From contig CAJJCS010000002.1 in NCBI GenBank assembly GCA_905182755.1, positions 248,001-312,000 on the forward strand: DNA of 64,000 nucleotides, written 5' to 3'. How positions within the stretch are numbered: the stretch's first letter is position 1; the number at the start of each line of letters is the position of its first letter. Position numbers and translations under genes: made by a program. Of the stretch, positions 51,767-64,000 are shown in pieces. The notes beneath the pieces are model-generated. The model saw only the letters and a list, made by a program, of their open reading frames with translations, was not told the DNA's origin and made no database searches. The stretch comes from Aequorivita sp. HC6-5. GTDB taxonomy: Bacteria > Bacteroidota > Bacteroidia > Flavobacteriales > Flavobacteriaceae.

Positions 51767-54700
51767 TTAAAATGTTGCTTTTATACCAAATGAGTAACGC
51801 TTAGATGTAGGTCCCGTTTGGAATTCTAAACCTTGACCGTTTCCTGTACCAACACTCAATGCTTCTGGATCAATGTTAAATGCATCAGGAATATTTACTG
51901 CCTTTACATATAAGTTTTGACCAGATAACGAGAATGAGATATTTCCGAAAGGAGTTTTCTCTAACATTTTCTCTGTTAGTGAGTATGTCAATGAAGCTTC
52001 TCTCAAACGTATGTGAGATGCGTCATACATACCTTGTCCAGATGGATCAACTAAGTTGATAAAGTATAGATCATTAGCACCAATTTGAATATTGTTTTGG
52101 ATTGGTAGGTCATCATCCCCTAATAATAACTGACCTGTTGTAGGGTTAGCTAATAATCCTGGAATAACATATGTTCCTTCTCTGTTATCAACGTTTACCT
52201 GTTGTTACACCACGACGGTAGAACTGAGATGCAGTTTGAGAATAGATATCACCACCATGTGTGTATTCCAATTGTGCAGATACAGCTAGTTGCTTGTACG
52301 TTAACGTATTAATCGTAGTTACTGTCCAGTCTGCGTTTGGATCACCAATTGTTTCAATACCTCTACCTAAATCACCTTCTGAGTCAAGAATTTGACCCGT
52401 ACCTGGATTAATTAGTAATGCACCGTTTACACCTGTTCCGTAAGGGTTGAAGTCAGCACTCGTCTGGATCGTTATTGATGTTTGATTCTGCATATCTCGC
52501 AGCATACCCACCTTTAATTACACCTAACGCTTCACCTTCAGAAGCATAGTTTCCTAAGTTAGAGAATCCAGCATACGCAAAAGATTCAACACCACCTAAG
52601 TCAATAACTGTGTTTTCTGCAGCACTAAAGTTGTTACGTACCTTCCAATTGAAGTTATCACTCTTGATTAGTGTAAAGTCTAAACCTAATTCTACACCTT
52701 CTATTTGCGTTTCTGCAATGTTATCAGATGTGAATGTTGCTCCAGTAGATGGAGAAATTGGTCTGTTTACAATTTGATCTTGTATTGATCTTTTGTATAT
52801 AGTTGCATCAATACTAATTCTTTTCTTGAATAAGTCTGCCTCTAAACCAAGTTCAAACTCTTTTTGAAGTTCTGGTTTTAGATTAACATTTCCTAAGAAA
52901 GAAGATAGTCCGTTTGTAGTAATTGCATTTCCATCACTATCTATCACTGCAGAAGCTGTAGAGTTAAATCCTGTTCTTGTAGAATATACTCCTGGGAATC
53001 TTGCAGAGGTACCGTAACCTGCACGGAACTTCAAGTAGTTTAGAGCATCAGATGATCCACCATCCATAGATGTTGGAACAAACGCTAAAGAAGCACCAGG
53101 GTAGAATAACGAATTGTTTTCTGCCTCAAGGGTTGAAGCCCAGTCATTACGACCAGATAATGTTAAGAATAAGTATCCACCATAATCAAAAGCAGCTTCA
53201 CCATAAGCACCTAATATATTTTGTTGTGCTTGGAAAGTTAAACTACCCGCAACTGGATCATTAATTGTTTGGTCAATAAAGTTGTCATGGTCAAAGAAAC
53301 CAAATACTACTTGGTTTTGACTTGACTGTCCAAATTGCTCGTAGGTATCACGTCTTGCGTTGAAACCTAGTTGAGTTGTTAAACTAAATTCATCAGCAAG
53401 CTCAATGTTGTTGAAACTAAAGTTTAAGTTGTGGTCAAAAATAAAGTTTGTACCGTTAGTTGTTCTTAAGTAACCTGTCGTGTATGGTGCCGTAACACTT
53501 CCTCGAGCTGCTTTAAACTCTTGAGTTTCGTTGTATGTATCCAAACCAAAACGGTAAGAGATAGATGCGTTGTCAGAGATTTCATAAGAAGCACCTAACT
53601 TACCGTAAAAACGATTTGTTTTTTGCTCACTACCTGCGTAGTTAGATAACCATCTTGGATTTTCTTGATCTGTTCTGTAATATACACTAGATCTATCGTT
53701 TGGATTTTCGTAAGGGATATTATTTAGATCCAAGTTTCTTGGCATAAATAATGTTCTTGTAAAAATAGATAAAGCTCCACCTGCGTTGTTTGCAGCAATT
53801 GGTGGTGTATTTACTCTCGTGCTACTAAAGTTAGCAGTTCCGTTAAATGAAAATTTGTTAGAAAGTTTCGTAGAACCACCAAGTCCAATGTTGTAACGAG
53901 TTAAACCGTTGTTTCTGATGTACCCATCTTCAGTTGTATAACCAAAGTTTAAGTTGTAACGTGTGTTACCATCATTTCCAGGAGATCCTGCAACATTCAC
54001 AGACATTGACTGACCCAGCCCAGTTCTAAAGAAATCTTTTACGTTATTAGGTGCAGCTACATAAGGAATTTTTAATCCGTCATATTCAGGGAATAAGTTT
54101 CCAAAAGAAGCATACGGGTGAGATACCTCAAGACCAGCGTCAAAACGTGCTCCCCAGTTACCTACATAACCAGAGTTGATTGTGTTATCAGCTCCTTGAC
54201 CATACTCATTTTGGTAATCTGCAAGGTTAGAGATTTCTGTTTGGTATACAGAAGAGTTAACAGTTACCTCAAACTTTTTGTTTAAGTCTTTGTTAGATCC
54301 GTTTTTCGTTGTAATAAGTACAACACCATTTCTACCTTGTTGTCCGTATAATACAGAAGCACTCAAACCTTTTAAGATTTGTACGCTTTCAACATTGTTT
54401 GGATCTAAATCCAAGAAACGGCTACTTGTTACTGTGTTACCACCACCAAAACCTGTTTGTTGGTTTGTACCAGAGTCGAAAGGAACACCATCTACAATAA
54501 ATAAAGGTTGGTTGCTACCATTAATAGAACTTCTACCACGAATAACAAAGTTAGTACCAGATCCAGTTGCTCCACTGTTACCTACAATCTGAACACCGGC
54601 AACTTTACCATTTAATGATCTAACAACGTCAGATTCTGGTTTGTTTTCGATTTCATCAGCTTGTAGTGTTGTAACTGCATATCCTAAAGACTTACGTTCT

Positions 54701-55044
54701 TTAGTTGCACCACCGTAACCTGTAAGTACTACCGCATCTAGCGTTTCTCCTTGAGCCATTGTTACATTCATCATACCAGATGATGCTGTAACAAGTTTTT
54801 CTTGAGAGTCAAACCCTACATAAGAGTAAACAAGTGATTGACCCACTTCTGTTGAGATAGAATAATTTCCATCAAAATCAGATTGAGTACCATTTGTCGT
54901 ACTTTTTACAATAATATTTACTCCTGGTAGCGGTAAGCCTGAATCATCAGTCACTGTACCGGAGATTGTTTTTTCCTGTGCAAATGATATTTGCACTACT
55001 AACGCTAGTAATAGCGTTAAAATTCCACTAAACTTTGTTTTCAT
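51767..55044 (-). pseudogene. SusC/RagA-family TonB-linked outer membrane protein, frame broken twice near the C-terminus
   Basis: ISGTVTDDSGLPLPGVNIIVKSTTNGTQSDFDGNYSI, GKVAGVQIVGNSGATGSGTNFVIRGRSSINGSNQPLFIVDGVPFD; C-terminal pieces in other frames end LREASLTYSLTEKML...KRYSFGIKATF. Confidence 0.88.
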
Positions 55045-55164: not shown

Positions 55165-56859
55165 CTAAAATTGTGAAGCGATACTTAGATGTATTTTTGA
55201 GTTTGAAAATTTAAATGCCTGACCATCAAGATTTCCGTTGGCTATAATAAACTTTAAAAGTCCTGCTTTAGTAACCATCCCCAACCCTAAGCCAAAACTA
55301 TACAGTTTTTCTTTTTGTCTTAGAATTTCATTTTCAAAATAACCTATATCTATTATGGAGTGCAGGTAGGTTTGTTGATTTAATAAATAGCGGTATTCTG
55401 TATTAAATACCGATAGTAGTGATGCGTCTATGCTGTTTTCTGCAAATCCACGCATACTGTTTATACCTCCAAACCTAAAGAGTTCATTTGTAAGGTAGTT
55501 TTCGCTAATTATTACATTAGTTGTGTTTTGCAGATAGACTGCGTTTTTTTGATTTAGGTTAAAGGTATGGTGTACCGTGTTTGATAAAGTACCTTGTCTG
55601 GTTTTAGTTGTATTTGTTTTTCTTGTTCCAAGGCCCCCTTGTAGGCTCATAAATGTTTTTACAGGAAAAAGAGTGCTCTGTTGTAATTTTATAAAAACTA
55701 CTCCAGCCCTAAGGGAGACTGTTTTGAAATCTTGAATGTTTTCAGGGTTTGGGTTTTGGGATAAAAGTTCATTGGAGGTTTTTGAGTTGAAGCCTAAAGA
55801 TGCTTTGGATCTTGGTGATATTTGGTATGAGGTGCTCACTCCCTGAGATGCCGAAGAAAATGTACTATCCCGTTTAAAGATATTAAGTTCTGCTTGAATC
55901 CCGAAAGGAGTCCTAAATAGATAAGGCAGTTGTGTTTTTAACGTTAGGCTTTCTTGATCTGCGCCATCTGCTTTGTATTTTATAACAAGTTGCTCTCCAA
56001 AGTTAAGGTTGTTGTTTAGTACTAAATCTATATAGCCATTAAATGCTAGGTTTTGTGTTTGCTCATTAGTGGCAAAACCTATAATGCCATCAAATGTGTT
56101 GAAGTTTTGTTTTTCTAGATATAAATAGACTGTTGTTTTTTCTTTTTCAAATAATGCTTGGGGCGGCTTGATGCTGTTTGCAAATCCCAGACTATTTAAA
56201 GCGTTGTTTTTCTTGACTACTTGCTGGCTGTCAAAAACAGCTCCTTTTTTTATACCCGCATAATATTTTATAAACGAGGCAGGAAATTTTTGATATCCTT
56301 TCACAGCAATAGAGTCAATTGTTCTTTTTGATGATGCAGATGTTTTTAGGGTGGCTATAACAATAGTGTCTTGCGTGGTTAGGTTTGTTAGTTTTAGTTT
56401 ACCAAATGTATTTCCGTTTTTTGTTTGCAGTTGGTTTAGTTTCTCTAAGGCACGTTTGCTCTCTTGCAAGGGTATGATGAAATAATTTTCTTTTGTGTTT
56501 TTTGCAATAAGTGCAACTTGATTTTGAGTAAATGGAGTGTTACTATAGTCTACCTTTAGCTGCGTATATCTTTTGCCTATATAAAAGCTAGCTGCAGCTG
56601 TTGAGTCTGAAATTCTCTTCATGCTTTTCATTGAATTTTCTAGGTATCCAAATTTTTCTAGCTCATTAGAAATCCTTTCAACTTCTTTTTTAACGCTTTT
56701 AAAATCTTGATGTTTTTGGGATACCACCAGAGCATCTTCAATGGTTTTTGGTATGCTCGTTTCAAAAGATACGGTGAGGGTTATATCCTGGCTGTGTGCT
56801 ATCAAGAAAAAACCGGTATATATATTAAGGTATAAAAATATGTAGCAAATTTGTTTCAA
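55165..56859 (-). CDS. BamA/TamA (Omp85)-like outer membrane protein
   Basis: POTRA-like N-terminal region; NTFDGIIGFATNEQTQNLAFNGYIDLVLNNNLNFGEQLVIKYKADGADQESLTLKTQLPYLFRTPFGIQAELNIFKRDSTF; NELFRFGGINSMRGFAENSI. Confidence 0.8.
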   Translation of the reverse strand: MKQICYIFLYLNIYTGFFLIAHSQDITLTVSFETSIPKTIEDALVVSQKHQDFKSVKKEVERISNELEKFGYLENSMKSMKRISDSTAAASFYIGKRYTQLKVDYSNTPFTQNQVALIAKNTKENYFIIPLQESKRALEKLNQLQTKNGNTFGKLKLTNLTTQDTIVIATLKTSASSKRTIDSIAVKGYQKFPASFIKYYAGIKKGAVFDSQQVVKKNNALNSLGFANSIKPPQALFEKEKTTVYLYLEKQNFNTFDGIIGFATNEQTQNLAFNGYIDLVLNNNLNFGEQLVIKYKADGADQESLTLKTQLPYLFRTPFGIQAELNIFKRDSTFSSASQGVSTSYQISPRSKASLGFNSKTSNELLSQNPNPENIQDFKTVSLRAGVVFIKLQQSTLFPVKTFMSLQGGLGTRKTNTTKTRQGTLSNTVHHTFNLNQKNAVYLQNTTNVIISENYLTNELFRFGGINSMRGFAENSIDASLLSVFNTEYRYLLNQQTYLHSIIDIGYFENEILRQKEKLYSFGLGLGMVTKAGLLKFIIANGNLDGQAFKFSNSKIHLSIASQF

Positions 56860-56958
56860 ATAGTCTGTAATTTATTATGTAATAGTAACGATTGCATTTC
56901 GTTTTTAATATCTGAAAGCATAAATATTAAAAATCCTAAAATTTTAATAGTCTAAGGT

Positions 56959-56988
56959 TTGAGATATCAAATAATTATTATATTTTTG
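56959..56988 (+). promoter_or_regulatory. Candidate promoter of the str operon (TTG-N19-TATTTTTG)
   Basis: TTG 56959-56961 and TATTTTTG 56981-56988, matching Bacteroidetes consensus spacing, upstream of rpsL. Confidence 0.65.
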
Positions 56989-57043
56989 CACGCCCTAATA
57001 AGAGGGAACTAATAAATAACAACTAAGTATAACAAGGAATTTT

Positions 57044-57418
57044 ATGCCAACTATTTCACAATTAGTACGAAAAGGAAGGACCAAAATAACCAAGAAGTCA
57101 AAATCGGCTGCCTTAGATTCATGTCCGCAACGCCGCGGAGTATGTACACGTGTTTATACTACCACACCAAAAAAACCGAATTCAGCGATGCGTAAAGTTG
57201 CTCGTGTTCGTTTAACAAATGGTAAGGAAGTAAACGCTTACATCGGTGGTGAAGGACACAATCTACAAGAACACTCGATAGTATTGGTTAGAGGTGGAAG
57301 GGTGAAGGATTTGCCTGGAGTTAGATATCATATCGTTCGTGGAGCTTTAGACACCGCTGGTGTTGACGGTAGAACACAACGTAGATCTAAGTACGGAGCA
57401 AAACGCCCTAAGAAGTAA
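57044..57418 (+). CDS. rpsL: 30S ribosomal protein S12
   Basis: [56 protein letters not shown]. Confidence 0.99.
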
Positions 57419-57443
57419 TTTTAATTTTTTTTAAAACGAAGAC

Positions 57444-57920
57444 ATGAGAAAAAGAGCAGCCAAGAAAAGACCGCTTTTACCGGATCCTAGATTCAACGAT
57501 CAGTTAGTTACACGATTTGTGAACAACTTGATGTGGGATGGTAAGAAGTCGGTAGCATTCAAGGTTTTCTATGATGCAATTGACATTGTAGAGGAGAAGA
57601 AAACAGACGAAGAAAAAACAGGTGTAGAGATTTGGAAGGACGCCCTTTCAAACGTAATGCCTCACGTAGAAGTACGAAGTCGTAGAGTAGGTGGTGCAAC
57701 GTACCAAATACCTAACCAGATTCGTGCCGATCGTAAAATATCTACTGCAATGAAGTGGTTAATTGGTTTCGCTAGAAAGCGTAACGAAAAATCTATGGCA
57801 CAAAAGCTAGCTTCAGAAATTCTAGCAGCAGCTAAAGAAGAAGGAGCAGCGGTTAAAAAGCGTACTGATACGCACAAAATGGCCGAAGCAAATAAAGCAT
57901 TCTCACACTTTAGATTCTAA
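57444..57920 (+). CDS. rpsG: 30S ribosomal protein S7
   Basis: [45 protein letters not shown]. Confidence 0.99.
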
Positions 57921-57925
57921 TAGAA

Positions 57926-60052
57926 ATGGCAAGAGATTTAAGATACACAAGGAATATAGGAATTGCTGCGCATATTGATGCTGGTAAAACTACCACAACA
58001 GAGCGTGTTTTATATTATACAGGAGTTTCTCATAAAATTGGTGAAGTACATGATGGTGCTGCAACAATGGATTGGATGGCGCAGGAGCAAGAACGTGGTA
58101 TTACTATCACCTCTGCTGCTACGACATGTGAGTGGAAATTTCCACTAGAGAATGGAGAAACATTAGCAGACACAAAAGGATATCACTTTAATATTATTGA
58201 CACACCTGGTCACGTAGATTTTACTGTAGAGGTAAATAGATCTCTTCGTGTACTAGATGGACTGGTTTTCTTGTTTAGTGCAGTTGACGGTGTAGAGCCT
58301 CAGTCTGAAACTAACTGGAGATTAGCAGATAACTATAAAGTACCAAGAATTGGTTTCGTTAACAAAATGGACCGTCAGGGATCTGACTTCTTGGGTGTTT
58401 GTCAACAAGTTAAAGACATGTTGAAGTCTAACGCGGTGCCAATTGTTTTAAACATTGGTGACGAAGAAGATTTTAAAGGTGTTATTGACTTAATAAAAAA
58501 CCGTGCTATTATTTGGCATGATGATACTCAAGGAGCAACATTTGATGTTGTTGATATCCCTGAGGATTTGAAAGAAGAAGCTCGTAAGTACCGTGCGCTC
58601 TTAATTGAAGAGGTTGCAAGTTATGACGAGAATCTTTTAGAAAAATTCATGGAAGATGAAGATTCTATTACAGAAGAAGAAGTGCACGCTGCACTTAGAG
58701 CTGCTGTAATGGATATGGCTATCATTCCTATGATTTGTGGGTCTGCTTTCAAGAACAAAGGGGTACAGTTTCTATTAGATGCTGTATGTCGTTACCTGCC
58801 TTCTCCTATGGATAAGGAAGGAATTGTTGGAATAAACCCAGATACAGACGAACAAGAAACGCGTAAGCCAAGTGTAGACGAACCTTTCGCTGCATTGGCC
58901 TTTAAAATTGCTACAGATCCTTTCGTGGGTCGCCTTGCATTTTTTAGAGCGTACTCTGGACGTTTGGATGCAGGTTCTTACGTTTTAAATAATCGTTCTG
59001 GTAAAAAAGAACGTATCTCGCGTATTTACCAAATGCATGCTAACAAACAAAACGCAATTGACTTTATAGAAGCTGGAGATATTGGAGCTGCTGTTGGATT
59101 TAAATCTATCAAAACAGGAGATACCCTTTCTGCAGAAAAACATCCTATTGTTTTAGAATCTATGGACTTCCCTGATCCAGTAATTGGTATTGCGGTTGAG
59201 CCTAAGACTAAGGCAGATGTTGATAAATTAGGTATGGGCTTAGCTAAATTAGCTGAAGAAGATCCAACCTTTACTGTACGTTCAGACGAAGCTTCAGGGC
59301 AAACTATTATATCAGGAATGGGTGAACTTCACCTTGATGTTATTGTAGACCGCCTTAGACGTGAATTTAACGTTGAAGTGAATCAAGGACAACCCCAAGT
59401 TGAATACAAAGAAGCTATTACAAGATCTGCAGATCACAGAGAAGTTTACAAGAAACAATCTGGTGGACGTGGTAAGTTTGCTGATATCGTGTTTACGATT
59501 GAACCAGCAGACGAGGGTGAAATAGGACTTCAGTTTGTATCTGCTATTAAAGGTGGTAATGTTCCTAAAGAATTTATTCCATCTATTGAAAAAGGATTCA
59601 AGATGGCTATGGTTAATGGACCACTGGCTGGATATGAGGTTGATTCTATGAAAGTAACTTTGCGTGATGGTTCATACCATGATGTGGATTCAGATCAACT
59701 ATCATTTGAATTAGCTGCAAAGCTTGGATTTAAAAATTCAGCAAAAGCTGCTAAGGCAGTTATTATGGAGCCAATTATGAAGCTTGAGGTAATTACACCT
59801 GAAGAAAACATGGGTGACATTGTAGGAGATTTAAATAGAAGAAGAGGTCAAGTGAGTGACATGGGTGACCGTGCAGGAGCAAAGACTGTTAAGGCTACAG
59901 TGCCACTTTCTGAAATGTTTGGATATGTTACAACACTCCGAACATTATCATCAGGTCGTGCAACATCAACAATGGAATTTTCACACTATGCAGAAACACC
60001 TTCTAATATATCAGAAGAGGTAATCACTGCAGCAAGAGGAACTAACGCTTAA
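57926..60052 (+). CDS. fusA: Elongation factor G
   Basis: [66 protein letters not shown]. Confidence 0.99.
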
Positions 60053-60062
60053 TATTTCAGCA

Positions 60063-60368
60063 ATGAGTCAAAAAATAAGAATTAAATTAAAGTCATACGA
60101 TCATAATTTAGTAGACAAATCTGCTGAGAAAATCGTTAAGACAGTAAAGTCAACAGGTGCTGTTGTAACTGGGCCAATTCCATTGCCAACACACAAGAAG
60201 ATTTTTACTGTACTACGTTCACCACACGTAAACAAGAAGAGTAGAGAACAGTTCCAATTAAGTTCTTACAAGAGATTATTGGATATCTATAGTTCTTCTT
60301 CAAAAACAATTGACGCTCTAATGAAGTTAGAGTTGCCAAGTGGTGTAGAGGTAGAAATCAAGGTATAA
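60063..60368 (+). CDS. rpsJ: 30S ribosomal protein S10
   Basis: [64 protein letters not shown]. Confidence 0.99.
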
Positions 60369-60569
60369 GTGAATGCCTACTTTTTGTAGGTAACTCATTA
60401 TCATGAGGCTTCTGCTTTGCAGAAGATGAACATGTCCTAAGCTGCGTGCGAAGGAAAAACGGTAAACAAAGTAATATTCGGGGTCGAATTTATTTTGACC
60501 CCGTTTTATTTTAAAAAAGAAAAACTGTTGCATGAGCAACGAATTTTAATAATCAATAAATAATAAATT
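60369..60569 (+). ncRNA. Candidate structured intra-operon RNA (r-protein leader/attenuator-like) between rpsJ and rplC
   Basis: Hairpins CCTAC-TTTTT-GTAGG, CTCAT-TATC-ATGAG, CTTCTGC-TTT-GCAGAAG, CGGGGTC-N11-GACCCCG then TTTTATTTT, and GTTGC-ATGA-GCAAC, in a 201-nt gap while other S10-operon gaps are about 0-26 nt. Confidence 0.5.
60479..60512 (+). terminator. Terminator-like hairpin inside the S10 operon
   Basis: CGGGGTC(60479-60485) pairs with GACCCCG(60497-60503), followed by TTTTATTTT. Confidence 0.6.
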
Positions 60570-61181
60570 ATGTCTGGGTTAATTGGAAAAAAGATAGGGA
60601 TGACCAGCATCTTTGACGAGAACGGTAAGAATATGCCGTGTACCGTTATTGAGTGTGGGCCCTGTGTTGTTACCCAAGTCAGAACTATGGAGGTTGATGG
60701 GTATGAGGCCCTTCAACTTGGTTTCGATGACAAGAAGACTGCTACTAAAGCCGCTGAAGGGCACTTTAAAAAAGCAGGAACCGTTGCAAAACGCAAAGTC
60801 GCCGAATTTAAAGGTTTTGATGAGGAAGTTAAATTAGGTGATACAATCACCGTTGAACATTTTGCTGAAGGAGAGTTTGTCGATGTGGCAGCCACTTCTA
60901 AAGGTAAAGGATTTCAAGGGGTTGTAAAACGTCACGGTTTTGCCGGTGTAGGACAAGCTACTCACGGTCAACATAACCGTTTAAGAGCGCCAGGTTCTAT
61001 TGGTGCAGCATCTTATCCTGCGAGAGTATTCAAAGGAATGAAGATGGCTGGACAAATGGGGAACGAAAAGGTGAAAGTTCAAAATTTAAGAGTTTTAAAA
61101 GTAGTTGCTGAAAAGAACCTACTTGTTGTTAAGGGATGTATTCCTGGACATAAAAACGCTTATGTAACCATCGAGAAATAA
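60570..61181 (+). CDS. rplC: 50S ribosomal protein L3
   Basis: [67 protein letters not shown]. Confidence 0.99.
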
Positions 61182-61810
61182 TGAAGGTAGCTGTAATAGA
61201 TAGTAAAGGAAAAGACACAGGTAGAAAGGTTGAACTTTCTAAAGAAGTGTTTGGTATAGAACCTAACAATCACGCTGTATATCTTGATGTAAAGCAGTAC
61301 TTGGCAAACCAACGTCAGGGAACGCATAAATCAAAAGAACGTGCAGAGATAACAGGATCTACAAGAAAGATAAAAAAACAAAAAGGAACTGGTACTGCCC
61401 GTGCGGGAAGTATCAAGTCTGGTGTTTTTAGAGGCGGTGGTCGTATGTTTGGTCCTAGACCAAGAAACTACTCGTTTAAATTAAATAAGAACTTGAAACG
61501 TTTAGCTCGTAAATCTGCCCTTACAATGAAGGCAAATGATAAGGCAATCGTTGTGTTAGAAGACTTAAAATTTGATGCTCCTAAGACTAAAGATTTTACT
61601 GCTGTTTTAAAGACTTTAGGTCTTGAAGACAAAAAGTCTTTGTTTGTGTTGGGTGAATCAAATAATAATGTATATTTGTCTTCGCGAAATTTAACAGGTA
61701 CTGAAGTCATAAGTAACTCAGAACTAAGTACTTATAAAATTTTGAATGCAAATAGTATCATACTATTTGAAGGTTCATTGGAAGGAATTGAGTCAAACTT
61801 AAGTAAATAG
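61181..61810 (+). CDS. rplD: 50S ribosomal protein L4
   Basis: [65 protein letters not shown]. Confidence 0.99.
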
Positions 61811-61817
61811 AAACAAG

Positions 61818-62111
61818 ATGAGTATCTTAATAAAACCTATAATTACGGAAAAAGCTACAGCCGATGCGGAATTAAATAACCGTTACGGATTTATAGTAAA
61901 CCCAAAGGCGAATAAGGTAGAAATCAAAAAAGCAGTTGAGGCTGCTTATGAAGTTTCTGTTCTTAAAGTTCGCACATTAAATGTCCGCCCGGACAGAAAA
62001 ACACGTTTTACAAAAACGGGAGTTCAAACTGGTAAAACAAATGCTTATAAAAAAGCAATTGTACAGGTGGCGGAAGGTGATACAATAGATTTTTACGGAG
62101 GAGCTGAATAA
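61818..62111 (+). CDS. rplW: 50S ribosomal protein L23
   Basis: [55 protein letters not shown]. Confidence 0.98.
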
Positions 62112-62137
62112 GCTTTTCATTTAAAACAAAGACAAAA

Positions 62138-62962
62138 ATGTCAGTAAGAAAATTAAAACCAATCACCCCAGGACAGCGTTTTAGAGTTGTAAATGGATTT
62201 GACGCCATTACAACTGATAAGCCGGAGAAAAGTTTATTAGCTCCGAACAAAAGATCTGGTGGTAGAAACAGTCAAGGAAAAATGACCATGCGCTATATAG
62301 GTGGTGGTCACAAAAAGAAATACAGAATAATCGATTTCAAACGTGAAAAAGCAGGAGTTCCTGCTACTGTAGCGTCTATCGAATATGATCCAAACCGTAC
62401 AGCATTTATCGCTTTATTAAACTATCAAGATGGTGAAAAGCGTTATGTAATTGCTCAAAACGGTCTTCAAGTAGGTCAAAATATCGTCTCTGGCGATGAT
62501 GTTGCTCCAGAAATTGGAAACGCAATGGCCCTTTCATCAATTCCATTAGGTACTATTATCTCTTGTATAGAGTTACGTCCAGGACAAGGAGCTGTATTGG
62601 CTCGTAGTGCTGGTGCTTTTGCACAGTTAATGGCCCGTGATGGTAAATTTGCTACCGTAAAATTACCTTCTGGTGAAACACGTTTAATCTTAGTTACTTG
62701 TATGGCTACCATTGGTGCCATATCAAACAGTGACCACCAGTTAACAGTATCTGGTAAGGCGGGACGTTCTAGATGGCTTGGTAGAAGACCACGTACAAGA
62801 CCAGTAGTGATGAACCCAGTCGATCACCCAATGGGTGGTGGTGAAGGGAAGTCTTCTGGTGGACACCCACGTTCTAGAAACGGTATTCCTGCAAAAGGAT
62901 TTAGAACCCGTTCTAAGACAAAGCAGAGTAATAAATACATAATTGAACGTAGAAAGAAATAA
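62138..62962 (+). CDS. rplB: 50S ribosomal protein L2
   Basis: [61 protein letters not shown]. Confidence 0.99.
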
Positions 62963-62965
62963 GCT

Positions 62966-63244
62966 ATGGCAAGATCGTTAAAAAAAGGACCGTACGTTCA
63001 CTACAAGTTAGATAAGAAAGTACAAGACAATGTGGAGACTAATAAAAAGACAGTGATCAAAACTTGGTCAAGAGCTTCTATGATAACTCCAGATTTTGTA
63101 GGACAAACTATCGCAGTTCATAATGGCCGTCAATTCGTGCCAGTATATGTTACTGAGAATATGGTAGGACATAAACTAGGAGAATTTTCACCAACAAGAT
63201 CATTCCGTGGTCACGCAGGTGCAAAAAATAAAGGTAAAAAATAA
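62966..63244 (+). CDS. rpsS: 30S ribosomal protein S19
   Basis: [69 protein letters not shown]. Confidence 0.99.
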
Positions 63245-63250
63245 TAGGCC

Positions 63251-63658
63251 ATGGGAGTTCGTAAAAGAGAAAAAGCAGAACAGATGAAAGAAGCTAAGAA
63301 GACTCAGTACTTCGCTAAGCTTAATAACTGTCCTACATCACCAAGAAAAATGCGCTTAATGGCGGATTTGGTTAGAGGTGAGAAAATTGATAAAGCACTA
63401 AATTTATTAAAATTTAGTTCAAAAGAAGCATCTAGACGTTTAGAGAAGTTGTTATTGTCTGCAATTGCAAACTGGCAAGCTAAAAACGAAGATGCCTCTA
63501 TAGAAGATGCAGATCTTTTTGTAAAGGAAATTCGTGTAGACGGAGGAACTATGCTAAAGAGATTACGTCCTGCACCGCAGGGTCGTGCTCACAGAATTAG
63601 AAAACGCTCAAACCATGTTACATTGGTATTAGGGGCTAACGATAACACACAAAGCTAA
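63251..63658 (+). CDS. rplV: 50S ribosomal protein L22
   Basis: [74 protein letters not shown]. Confidence 0.99.
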
Positions 63659-63665
63659 ATTATAA

Positions 63666-64000
63666 ATGGGACAGAAGACAAATCCAATCGGAAACCGCTT
63701 AGGAATAATCAGAGGATGGGAATCTAACTGGTACGGTGGAAACGACTACGGTGATAGATTAGCCGAAGACGACAAGATTAGAAAGTATATTCACGCTCGT
63801 TTAAGTAAAGCAAGTGTGTCTAGAGTAATTATTGAGCGTACGCTTAAACTTGTAACCGTTACTATCACTACTGCTAGACCTGGTATTATTATCGGGAAAG
63901 GTGGACAAGAGGTAGACAAGTTGAAAGAAGAGCTTAAGAAAATTACAGAGAAAGAAGTACAGATCAACATCCATGAAATCAAGAGACCTGAGTTGGATGC
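63666..64000 (+). CDS. rpsC: 30S ribosomal protein S3 (partial, runs off window)
   Basis: ATG at 63666: [86 protein letters not shown]. Confidence 0.98.

Follow-up and report, generated by a model that had tools for sequence, protein, structure and literature searches.

A putative Flavobacteriaceae leader RNA with a proposed conditional terminator between rpsJ and rplC

Described leaders and the rpsJ-rplC junction

In E. coli, L4 controls the S10 operon at the levels of both attenuation and translation, and a Rho-independent stop is found in the leader (PMC10931766). The rplJL genes of B. subtilis are controlled by L10(L12)4 through attenuation, using an overlapping antiterminator and terminator located downstream of the binding part (PMC4538822). 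Leaders have also been identified in Flavobacteria, specifically for S4, S15 and S16 (Eckert et al. 2020, PMC7247131, Table 1); the sole rplC entry in the same table is the archaeal Archaeoglobi L4 motif, with L4 as the predicted ligand. Flavo-1 RNA (Weinberg et al. 2010), as far as it is described in PMC9723704, is scattered and not bound to one gene.

The window analyzed here is a 64,000-nucleotide stretch of Aequorivita sp. HC6-5 DNA (contig CAJJCS010000002.1). On its + strand, it carries the cluster rpsL, rpsG, fusA, rpsJ, rplC, rplD, rplW, rplB, rpsS, rplV and rpsC, with a 201-nt spacer between the rpsJ stop (60368) and the rplC start (60570). Based on the ORF list, gaps elsewhere in the rpsL-to-rpsC run are 0-26 nt; these coordinates agree with a preliminary description of this DNA, in which a long non-coding gap was noted inside an otherwise tightly spaced operon. 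When the whole spacer is folded, its z is -5.9 and none of 200 shuffles folds as well. On the opposite strand to the ribosomal cluster, the frames 52453-55044 (-) and 55165-56859 (-) encode a TonB-dependent SusC-like receptor beside an outer-membrane BamA/ShlB-like protein; the SusC-like receptor frame, one member of this pair, looks short (863 aa).

Like the E. coli S10 leader, the element described below would control the rplC-rplD... operon and includes a leader terminator (PMC10931766). However, it is not located upstream of rpsJ, the position of an E. coli-type S10 leader, but follows this gene and precedes rplC; it further differs in its ~83 nt length and its predicted overlapping antiterminator. 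It resembles the B. subtilis rplJL leader in having an overlapping antiterminator and terminator downstream of a (here putative) binding part, but the genes, sequence and proposed ligand are different, and between this binding part and the antiterminator there is no visible overlap of the kind expected of a classical anti-antiterminator. The S4, S15 and S16 leaders of Flavobacteria are similar in that they are lineage-restricted, computationally found and placed ahead of ribosomal-protein genes within this bacterial group, although none of them lies upstream of rplC. Flavo-1, to the extent that PMC9723704 describes it, is likewise a motif widespread in Flavobacteriaceae, but the element here, unlike the scattered Flavo-1, is present as one copy per genome in front of rplC and matches no Rfam family. 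A covariance-model search of 60369-60569 against Rfam 15 (4227 families) gave no match even at E ≤ 5. No published description was found in a search of open-access papers, and the most complete list of ribosomal-protein leaders holds no bacterial rplC leader in Flavobacteria (PMC7247131). The element is best read as a previously uncatalogued ribosomal-protein leader and attenuator at an unusual operon-internal position.

Extent and distribution of the conserved element

Judging from the copies compared, the predicted functional core is 60430-60512 (~83 nt) and not the three 5' hairpins at 60376-60425. The features of the junction are as follows:

60063..60368, + strand, ORF of rpsJ (S10), the gene upstream of the spacer on the same strand
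60376..60425, + strand, three short hairpins: CCTAC/GTAGG (60376-60390), CTCAT-TATC-ATGAG (60394-60407) and CTTCTGC/GCAGAAG (60409-60425)
60430..60437, + strand, ACAUGUCC, unchanged in 149 of 161 copies and forming the 5' side of the putative ligand-binding part
60438..60452, + strand, apical hairpin within the putative ligand-binding part; its sequence varies, but the stem is kept on an invariant CC/GG base
60453..60462, + strand, GGAAAAACGG, the 3' strand of the putative ligand-binding part, identical in 158 of 161 copies (AUGG in the others)
60467..60497, + strand, antiterminator hairpin CAAAGUAA-U-AUUCG-[GGGU]-CGAAU-UUAUUUUG, overlapping the terminator
60479..60503, + strand, terminator hairpin CGGGGUCGAA...UUUUGACCCCG of 10 pairs, followed by TTTTATTTT
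60504..60512, + strand, U-rich terminator tract UUUUAUUUU
60527..60540, + strand, small hairpin GUUGC-AUGA-GCAAC (GTTGC-ATGA-GCAAC in DNA) before rplC, outside the conserved motif
60570..61181, + strand, ORF of rplC (L3), the first downstream gene, followed by rplD, rplW, rplB, rpsS, rplV and rpsC

The core begins with ACAUGUCC-[hairpin]-GGAAAAACGG, followed by a strand rich in A and then by a terminator; in the predicted alternative fold, the antiterminator, the A-rich strand pairs with the 5' arm and loop of that terminator. All of the hairpins named in the preliminary description are present in the sequence (with CTCAT-TATC-ATGAG displaced by one base), but the conserved stretch 60430-60462 (ACAUGUCC ... 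GGAAAAACGG) and the alternative hairpin at 60467-60497 were absent from it. In the alignment, the apical hairpin between ACAUGUCC and GGAAAAACGG shows compensatory or double changes. Two further pairings were dropped because they are not kept in most genera: one between GUCCUGA, on the 5' strand of the putative aptamer, and the terminator arm (UCAGGGU), the other between AAAAACGG and the terminator-tail sequence CCGUUUUU.

The block of 5' hairpins folds with a z of -4.7. These hairpins show compensating changes in close relatives only (L003-L007); at the same place, other genera have unrelated hairpins, CCTGC/GCAGG palindromes or nothing. Comparison of rpsJ-rplC spacers, for which rplC could be placed in 57 of 59 relatives, showed no conservation of the initial 60 nt beyond close relatives. 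Starting at 60430, by contrast, almost every spacer in the family has ACAUGUCC, a small hairpin, GGAAAAACGG, an A-rich segment and a terminator. The gap between rpsJ and the leader, with a median of 32 nt, falls to 9 nt in other genera. The 5' hairpins are thus not supported as the conserved regulatory RNA that they had been taken to be. Among segments of this gap from other genera (30-130 nt), 61 of 90 fold beyond chance (z < -2), often with CCTGC/GCAGG or GACGCA palindromes. Both these palindromes and the 5' hairpins are possibly 3'-end stabilising or repeat elements.

A covariance model built from 25 copies identified the element (E ≤ 1e-5) in 342 of 399 Flavobacteriaceae genomes, covering 177 of 203 genera, with one match per genome. 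In the Aequorivita genome itself, the one match has an E-value of 3e-19 and the next best an E-value of about 1. Strong matches in a covariance-model search of the order were restricted to Flavobacteriaceae, as were all 21 matches in 393 genomes of the phylum; no credible copy was found by this search in other families of the order or phylum. In 161 of 161 distinct copies, rplC lies 70-273 nt downstream; as is typical of a ribosomal-protein leader, the element is a conserved RNA just upstream of a ribosomal-protein gene. An exact-pattern scan of genome contigs produced at least 80 loci in at least 118 stretches. Among the 80 loci listed, which include Winogradskyella, Polaribacter, Tenacibaculum, Maribacter, Gramella, Salegentibacter, Lutibacter and Cellulophaga, rplC is just downstream in 72, three end at a contig edge and five are chance matches. 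The positional conservation in relatives that the preliminary description proposed as a check is therefore found, upstream of rplC, across Flavobacteriaceae.

Weak matches outside the family (f5, f6, f13 and f16; E 5e-4 to 9e-3) and second matches in G120 and G268 are terminator look-alikes or lie within other genes: those inspected lack ACAUGUCC...GGAAAAACGG and do not precede rplC. Nor does a match in G308 represent the motif. The five exact-pattern matches from other phyla (L255, L260, L275, L280 and L306) are accompanied by neither rplC nor a terminator and were considered to be chance. Two contigs labelled as other groups carry a flavobacterial leader: CALSPC010000003.1 (L276, labelled as a Rhodobacteraceae MAG), with rplC downstream, and JAADHG010000209.1 (L298, labelled as a Chlorobiota MAG), where it follows an rpsJ-like end. 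These contigs are probably mis-binned or mis-named.

Terminator and antiterminator pairing

The terminator between rpsJ and rplC noted in the preliminary description is confirmed: within 56800-64000, no terminator-like site scores better than the 60479-60503 stem and its U-run, and 12 such sites occur in this region versus 3.9 expected in shuffles. Folded alone, the terminator has a z of -5.3. Such an intrinsic terminator (a GC-rich hairpin and a U-run), as found in attenuators, is present in all 161 copies. In 100 aligned copies, 99.3% of cells are paired, dropping to 24-64% in slid controls, and 91 cells of the model structure are double-changed, versus 15 in shuffles. Double changes are found in eight of nine terminator pairs, a level reached by none of 500 shuffles. 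Under a strict null (substitution shuffling on a short-gene tree), the base-pair score identifies one clearly significant terminator pair (E = 0), with the next best at E 0.4-1.0. A general covariation G-test with the tree null gave no pair below E 0.2, although terminator pairs have the top observed scores. The terminator and apical stem, through their double changes, thus form a covarying secondary structure, with a weaker result under the strict tree null. With respect to the covarying stems that the preliminary description proposed to look for, covariation is seen in the terminator stem (against shuffles, and for one pair under the tree null) but not in the 5' hairpins beyond close relatives.

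Directly upstream of the terminator, an A-rich strand complements the U-rich terminator loop, and a UUC/GAA inside this A-rich/U-rich pairing gives a hairpin that overlaps the terminator 5' arm. This antiterminator hairpin (60467-60497) has an energy of -9 kcal/mol and a z of -3.9. When leaders were cut before the terminator 3' arm, the antiterminator fold was obtained in all of the leaders listed, a subset of the 161; mean energies are -6.1 kcal/mol for the cut leaders (all 161) and -14.6 for the terminator. All 141 parseable copies contain at least five outer antiterminator pairs. True strands pair at -4.93 versus -3.17 (sd 0.14) for between-species swaps, with none of 1000 permutations matching; as the strands are A-rich and U-rich, part of this pairing is composition, and swaps still reach the latter value. 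Complementarity is kept through sequence change, for example in AAAAUACA/CGUAUUUU, AAAACAUA/CAUGUUUA, AACACACA/CGUGUUCG and AAAAUUAA/UAAUUUUU.

Among 36 phylogenetically independent contrasts, the true partners are favoured in every one of the 13 in which the swap energy shifts by 1 kcal/mol or more; this 13:0 count is the usable figure, as the sign-test p also includes rounding noise. A nearest-relative swap test was weakly favourable (55 better, 47 worse, 14 equal; Wilcoxon p 0.008), and no antiterminator pair passes the strict tree null. The mutually exclusive upstream hairpin of an attenuator, kept by complementarity, is thus found here, with the nearest-relative swap giving the weaker result. 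The structural case, as drawn from these alignments, rests on the combined tests, the terminator being better supported than the antiterminator. A pseudoknot, with the terminator and the A-strand/loop pairing formed at once, is less likely: its loops look too short, and the inner UUC/GAA pairing points to alternative hairpins.

Proposed control of rplC and alternative explanations

The distance from the terminator end to the rplC ATG is at minimum 30 nt (median 51). The Bacteroidota -7 element TAnnTTTG is found in this interval in only 1 of 161 copies, and between the rpsJ stop and the leader in 3 of 156. Because rplC and the genes that follow encode core ribosomal proteins and the gap is essentially promoterless, these genes must be transcribed through the terminator in most genera. 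In L018, L057 and L089, a promoter-like site precedes the leader, which is kept as a 5' UTR. The leader has been lost from Flavobacterium-like genomes (g46; L109-L121), and in 9 of 11 of those inspected the rpsJ-rplC gap contains a TAnnTTTG promoter-like site, which suggests that a separate promoter replaced attenuation in these genomes. At the junction of a few further genomes without the leader there is a plain terminator (L015, L111, L075 and L076) or a short gap (L024). An independent promoter, which the preliminary description named as a competing account of the gap, is thus a candidate in only a few lineages: L018, L057 and L089, upstream of the leader, and the leaderless Flavobacterium-like genomes. 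These are the cases that would fit an ordinary operon boundary, with the str operon closed by the terminator and rplC transcribed from a promoter of its own. However, the window and most genera have no such promoter on either side of the terminator, and the median space before the rplC start is barely enough for one, making this explanation very unlikely.

We consider it probable that 60430-60512 forms a ribosomal-protein leader specific to Flavobacteriaceae, with the role of a conditional terminator between the str and S10 operon parts. In the genomes compared, it is a single copy before rplC that combines a binding-site-like part, a terminator and, on the terminator's 5' arm and loop, a predicted competing antiterminator. 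Attenuation of rplC onward is the best explanation because of the positional conservation, the covarying terminator, the overlapping antiterminator and the lack of room for a promoter. The earlier proposal that control lies between S10 and L3, with rplC onward attenuated relative to rpsL-rpsG-fusA-rpsJ, is retained in this form, with the 5' hairpins removed from the RNA responsible.

The antiterminator, completed first by RNA polymerase, would let transcription proceed into rplC. If a factor occupied ACAUGUCC-hairpin-GGAAAAACGG, which adjoins the A-rich strand of the antiterminator, it would block the antiterminator, such that the more stable terminator would form and rplC onward would be reduced. 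Such protein-induced termination would follow the established logic of B. subtilis rplJL (PMC4538822). By precedent, the factor would be a ribosomal protein of the downstream operon, most likely L4 acting in feedback. Our leading guess is L4, given its role in regulating the E. coli S10 operon and its prediction as the ligand for the archaeal rplC leader. With the terminator favoured by ~8 kcal/mol over the antiterminator, antitermination would need to be kinetic or assisted. Against this explanation, Flavobacterium-like and other genera do without the element.

To our knowledge, regulation of the largest ribosomal-protein operon in Bacteroidota has been little studied. The element, found in most genera of an abundant marine family, probably sets the output of a large downstream ribosomal-protein operon, and it suggests that control is exerted at the operon boundary and not where the str-S10 cluster begins. 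At ~83 nt, the RNA is small and has precise boundaries, and readthrough into rplC would serve as its own readout; both ligand and mechanism are directly testable with one in vitro transcription template. The Flavobacterium-like genomes, with the leader lost and mostly a promoter-like site instead, provide a natural comparison group.

A constitutive partial terminator, lowering the rplC operon by a fixed factor relative to EF-G, S7, S12 and S10 with neither ligand nor switching, is unlikely. Although it would be in keeping with the terminator in all copies and with the plain terminator that some leaderless relatives (L015, L111, L075 and L076) keep at the same junction, it leaves unexplained both the near-invariant ACAUGUCC/GGAAAAACGG and the kept antiterminator complementarity, the 5' strand of which lies outside the terminator. 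The leader might also sense a signal other than a ribosomal protein, such as a small molecule, an sRNA or a termination factor. S10 itself is an antitermination factor (NusE), and the conserved single-stranded flanks on the hairpin suit other ligands, but the strict tie to one ribosomal-protein operon with one copy per genome is that of ribosomal-protein leaders generally, and we regard this reading as unlikely.

It is somewhat unlikely that the proposed attenuator responds to a ligand other than L4, either L3, L2, L22 or L23 of the S10 operon or L20 in trans. The 23S rRNA of leader-bearing relatives contains CAUGUCC-GAGAGGGAAAGAAC at H39-H40, which resembles CAUGUCC...GGGAAAAAC of the leader and adjoins the L20 site at the H40-H41 junction (PMC6962249). 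This likeness of the 23S stretch (CAUGUCCGAGAGGGAAAGAAC, H39-H40) has a Markov-shuffle p of 0.03, using a score designed after the match was seen. Leaderless Flavobacterium-like genomes carry CAAGUCC instead. Known L20 leaders have two G-C pairs and an AA dimer (PMC7247131); the leader here has an invariant CC/GG and AAAAA as well as the likeness to 23S H39-H40, without co-change. However, the leader variant ACUUGUCC (G035) has no matching change in the 23S rRNA of that species, a leaderless genome from another family (G037) has the same 23S stretch, the structural contexts differ (the H39 3' strand versus the closing CC/GG stem) and L20 is not encoded in the S10 operon here. The co-change test did not support 23S mimicry, and no convincing rRNA mimicry points to the ligand; the likeness is treated as a lead. 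It is very unlikely that the element is a family-wide attenuator that uncouples str from S10 at rpsJ/rplC under the control of L20, a protein from outside the operon, via this H39-H40 resemblance; if it were, one early large-subunit assembly protein would set the supply of a whole ribosomal-protein operon. In leaderless Flavobacterium-like genomes, the H39 stem is flipped from GGGCAUGG/CCAUGUCC to GGGCUUGG/CCAAGUCC (L349 and L360 versus L229, L348 and L351).
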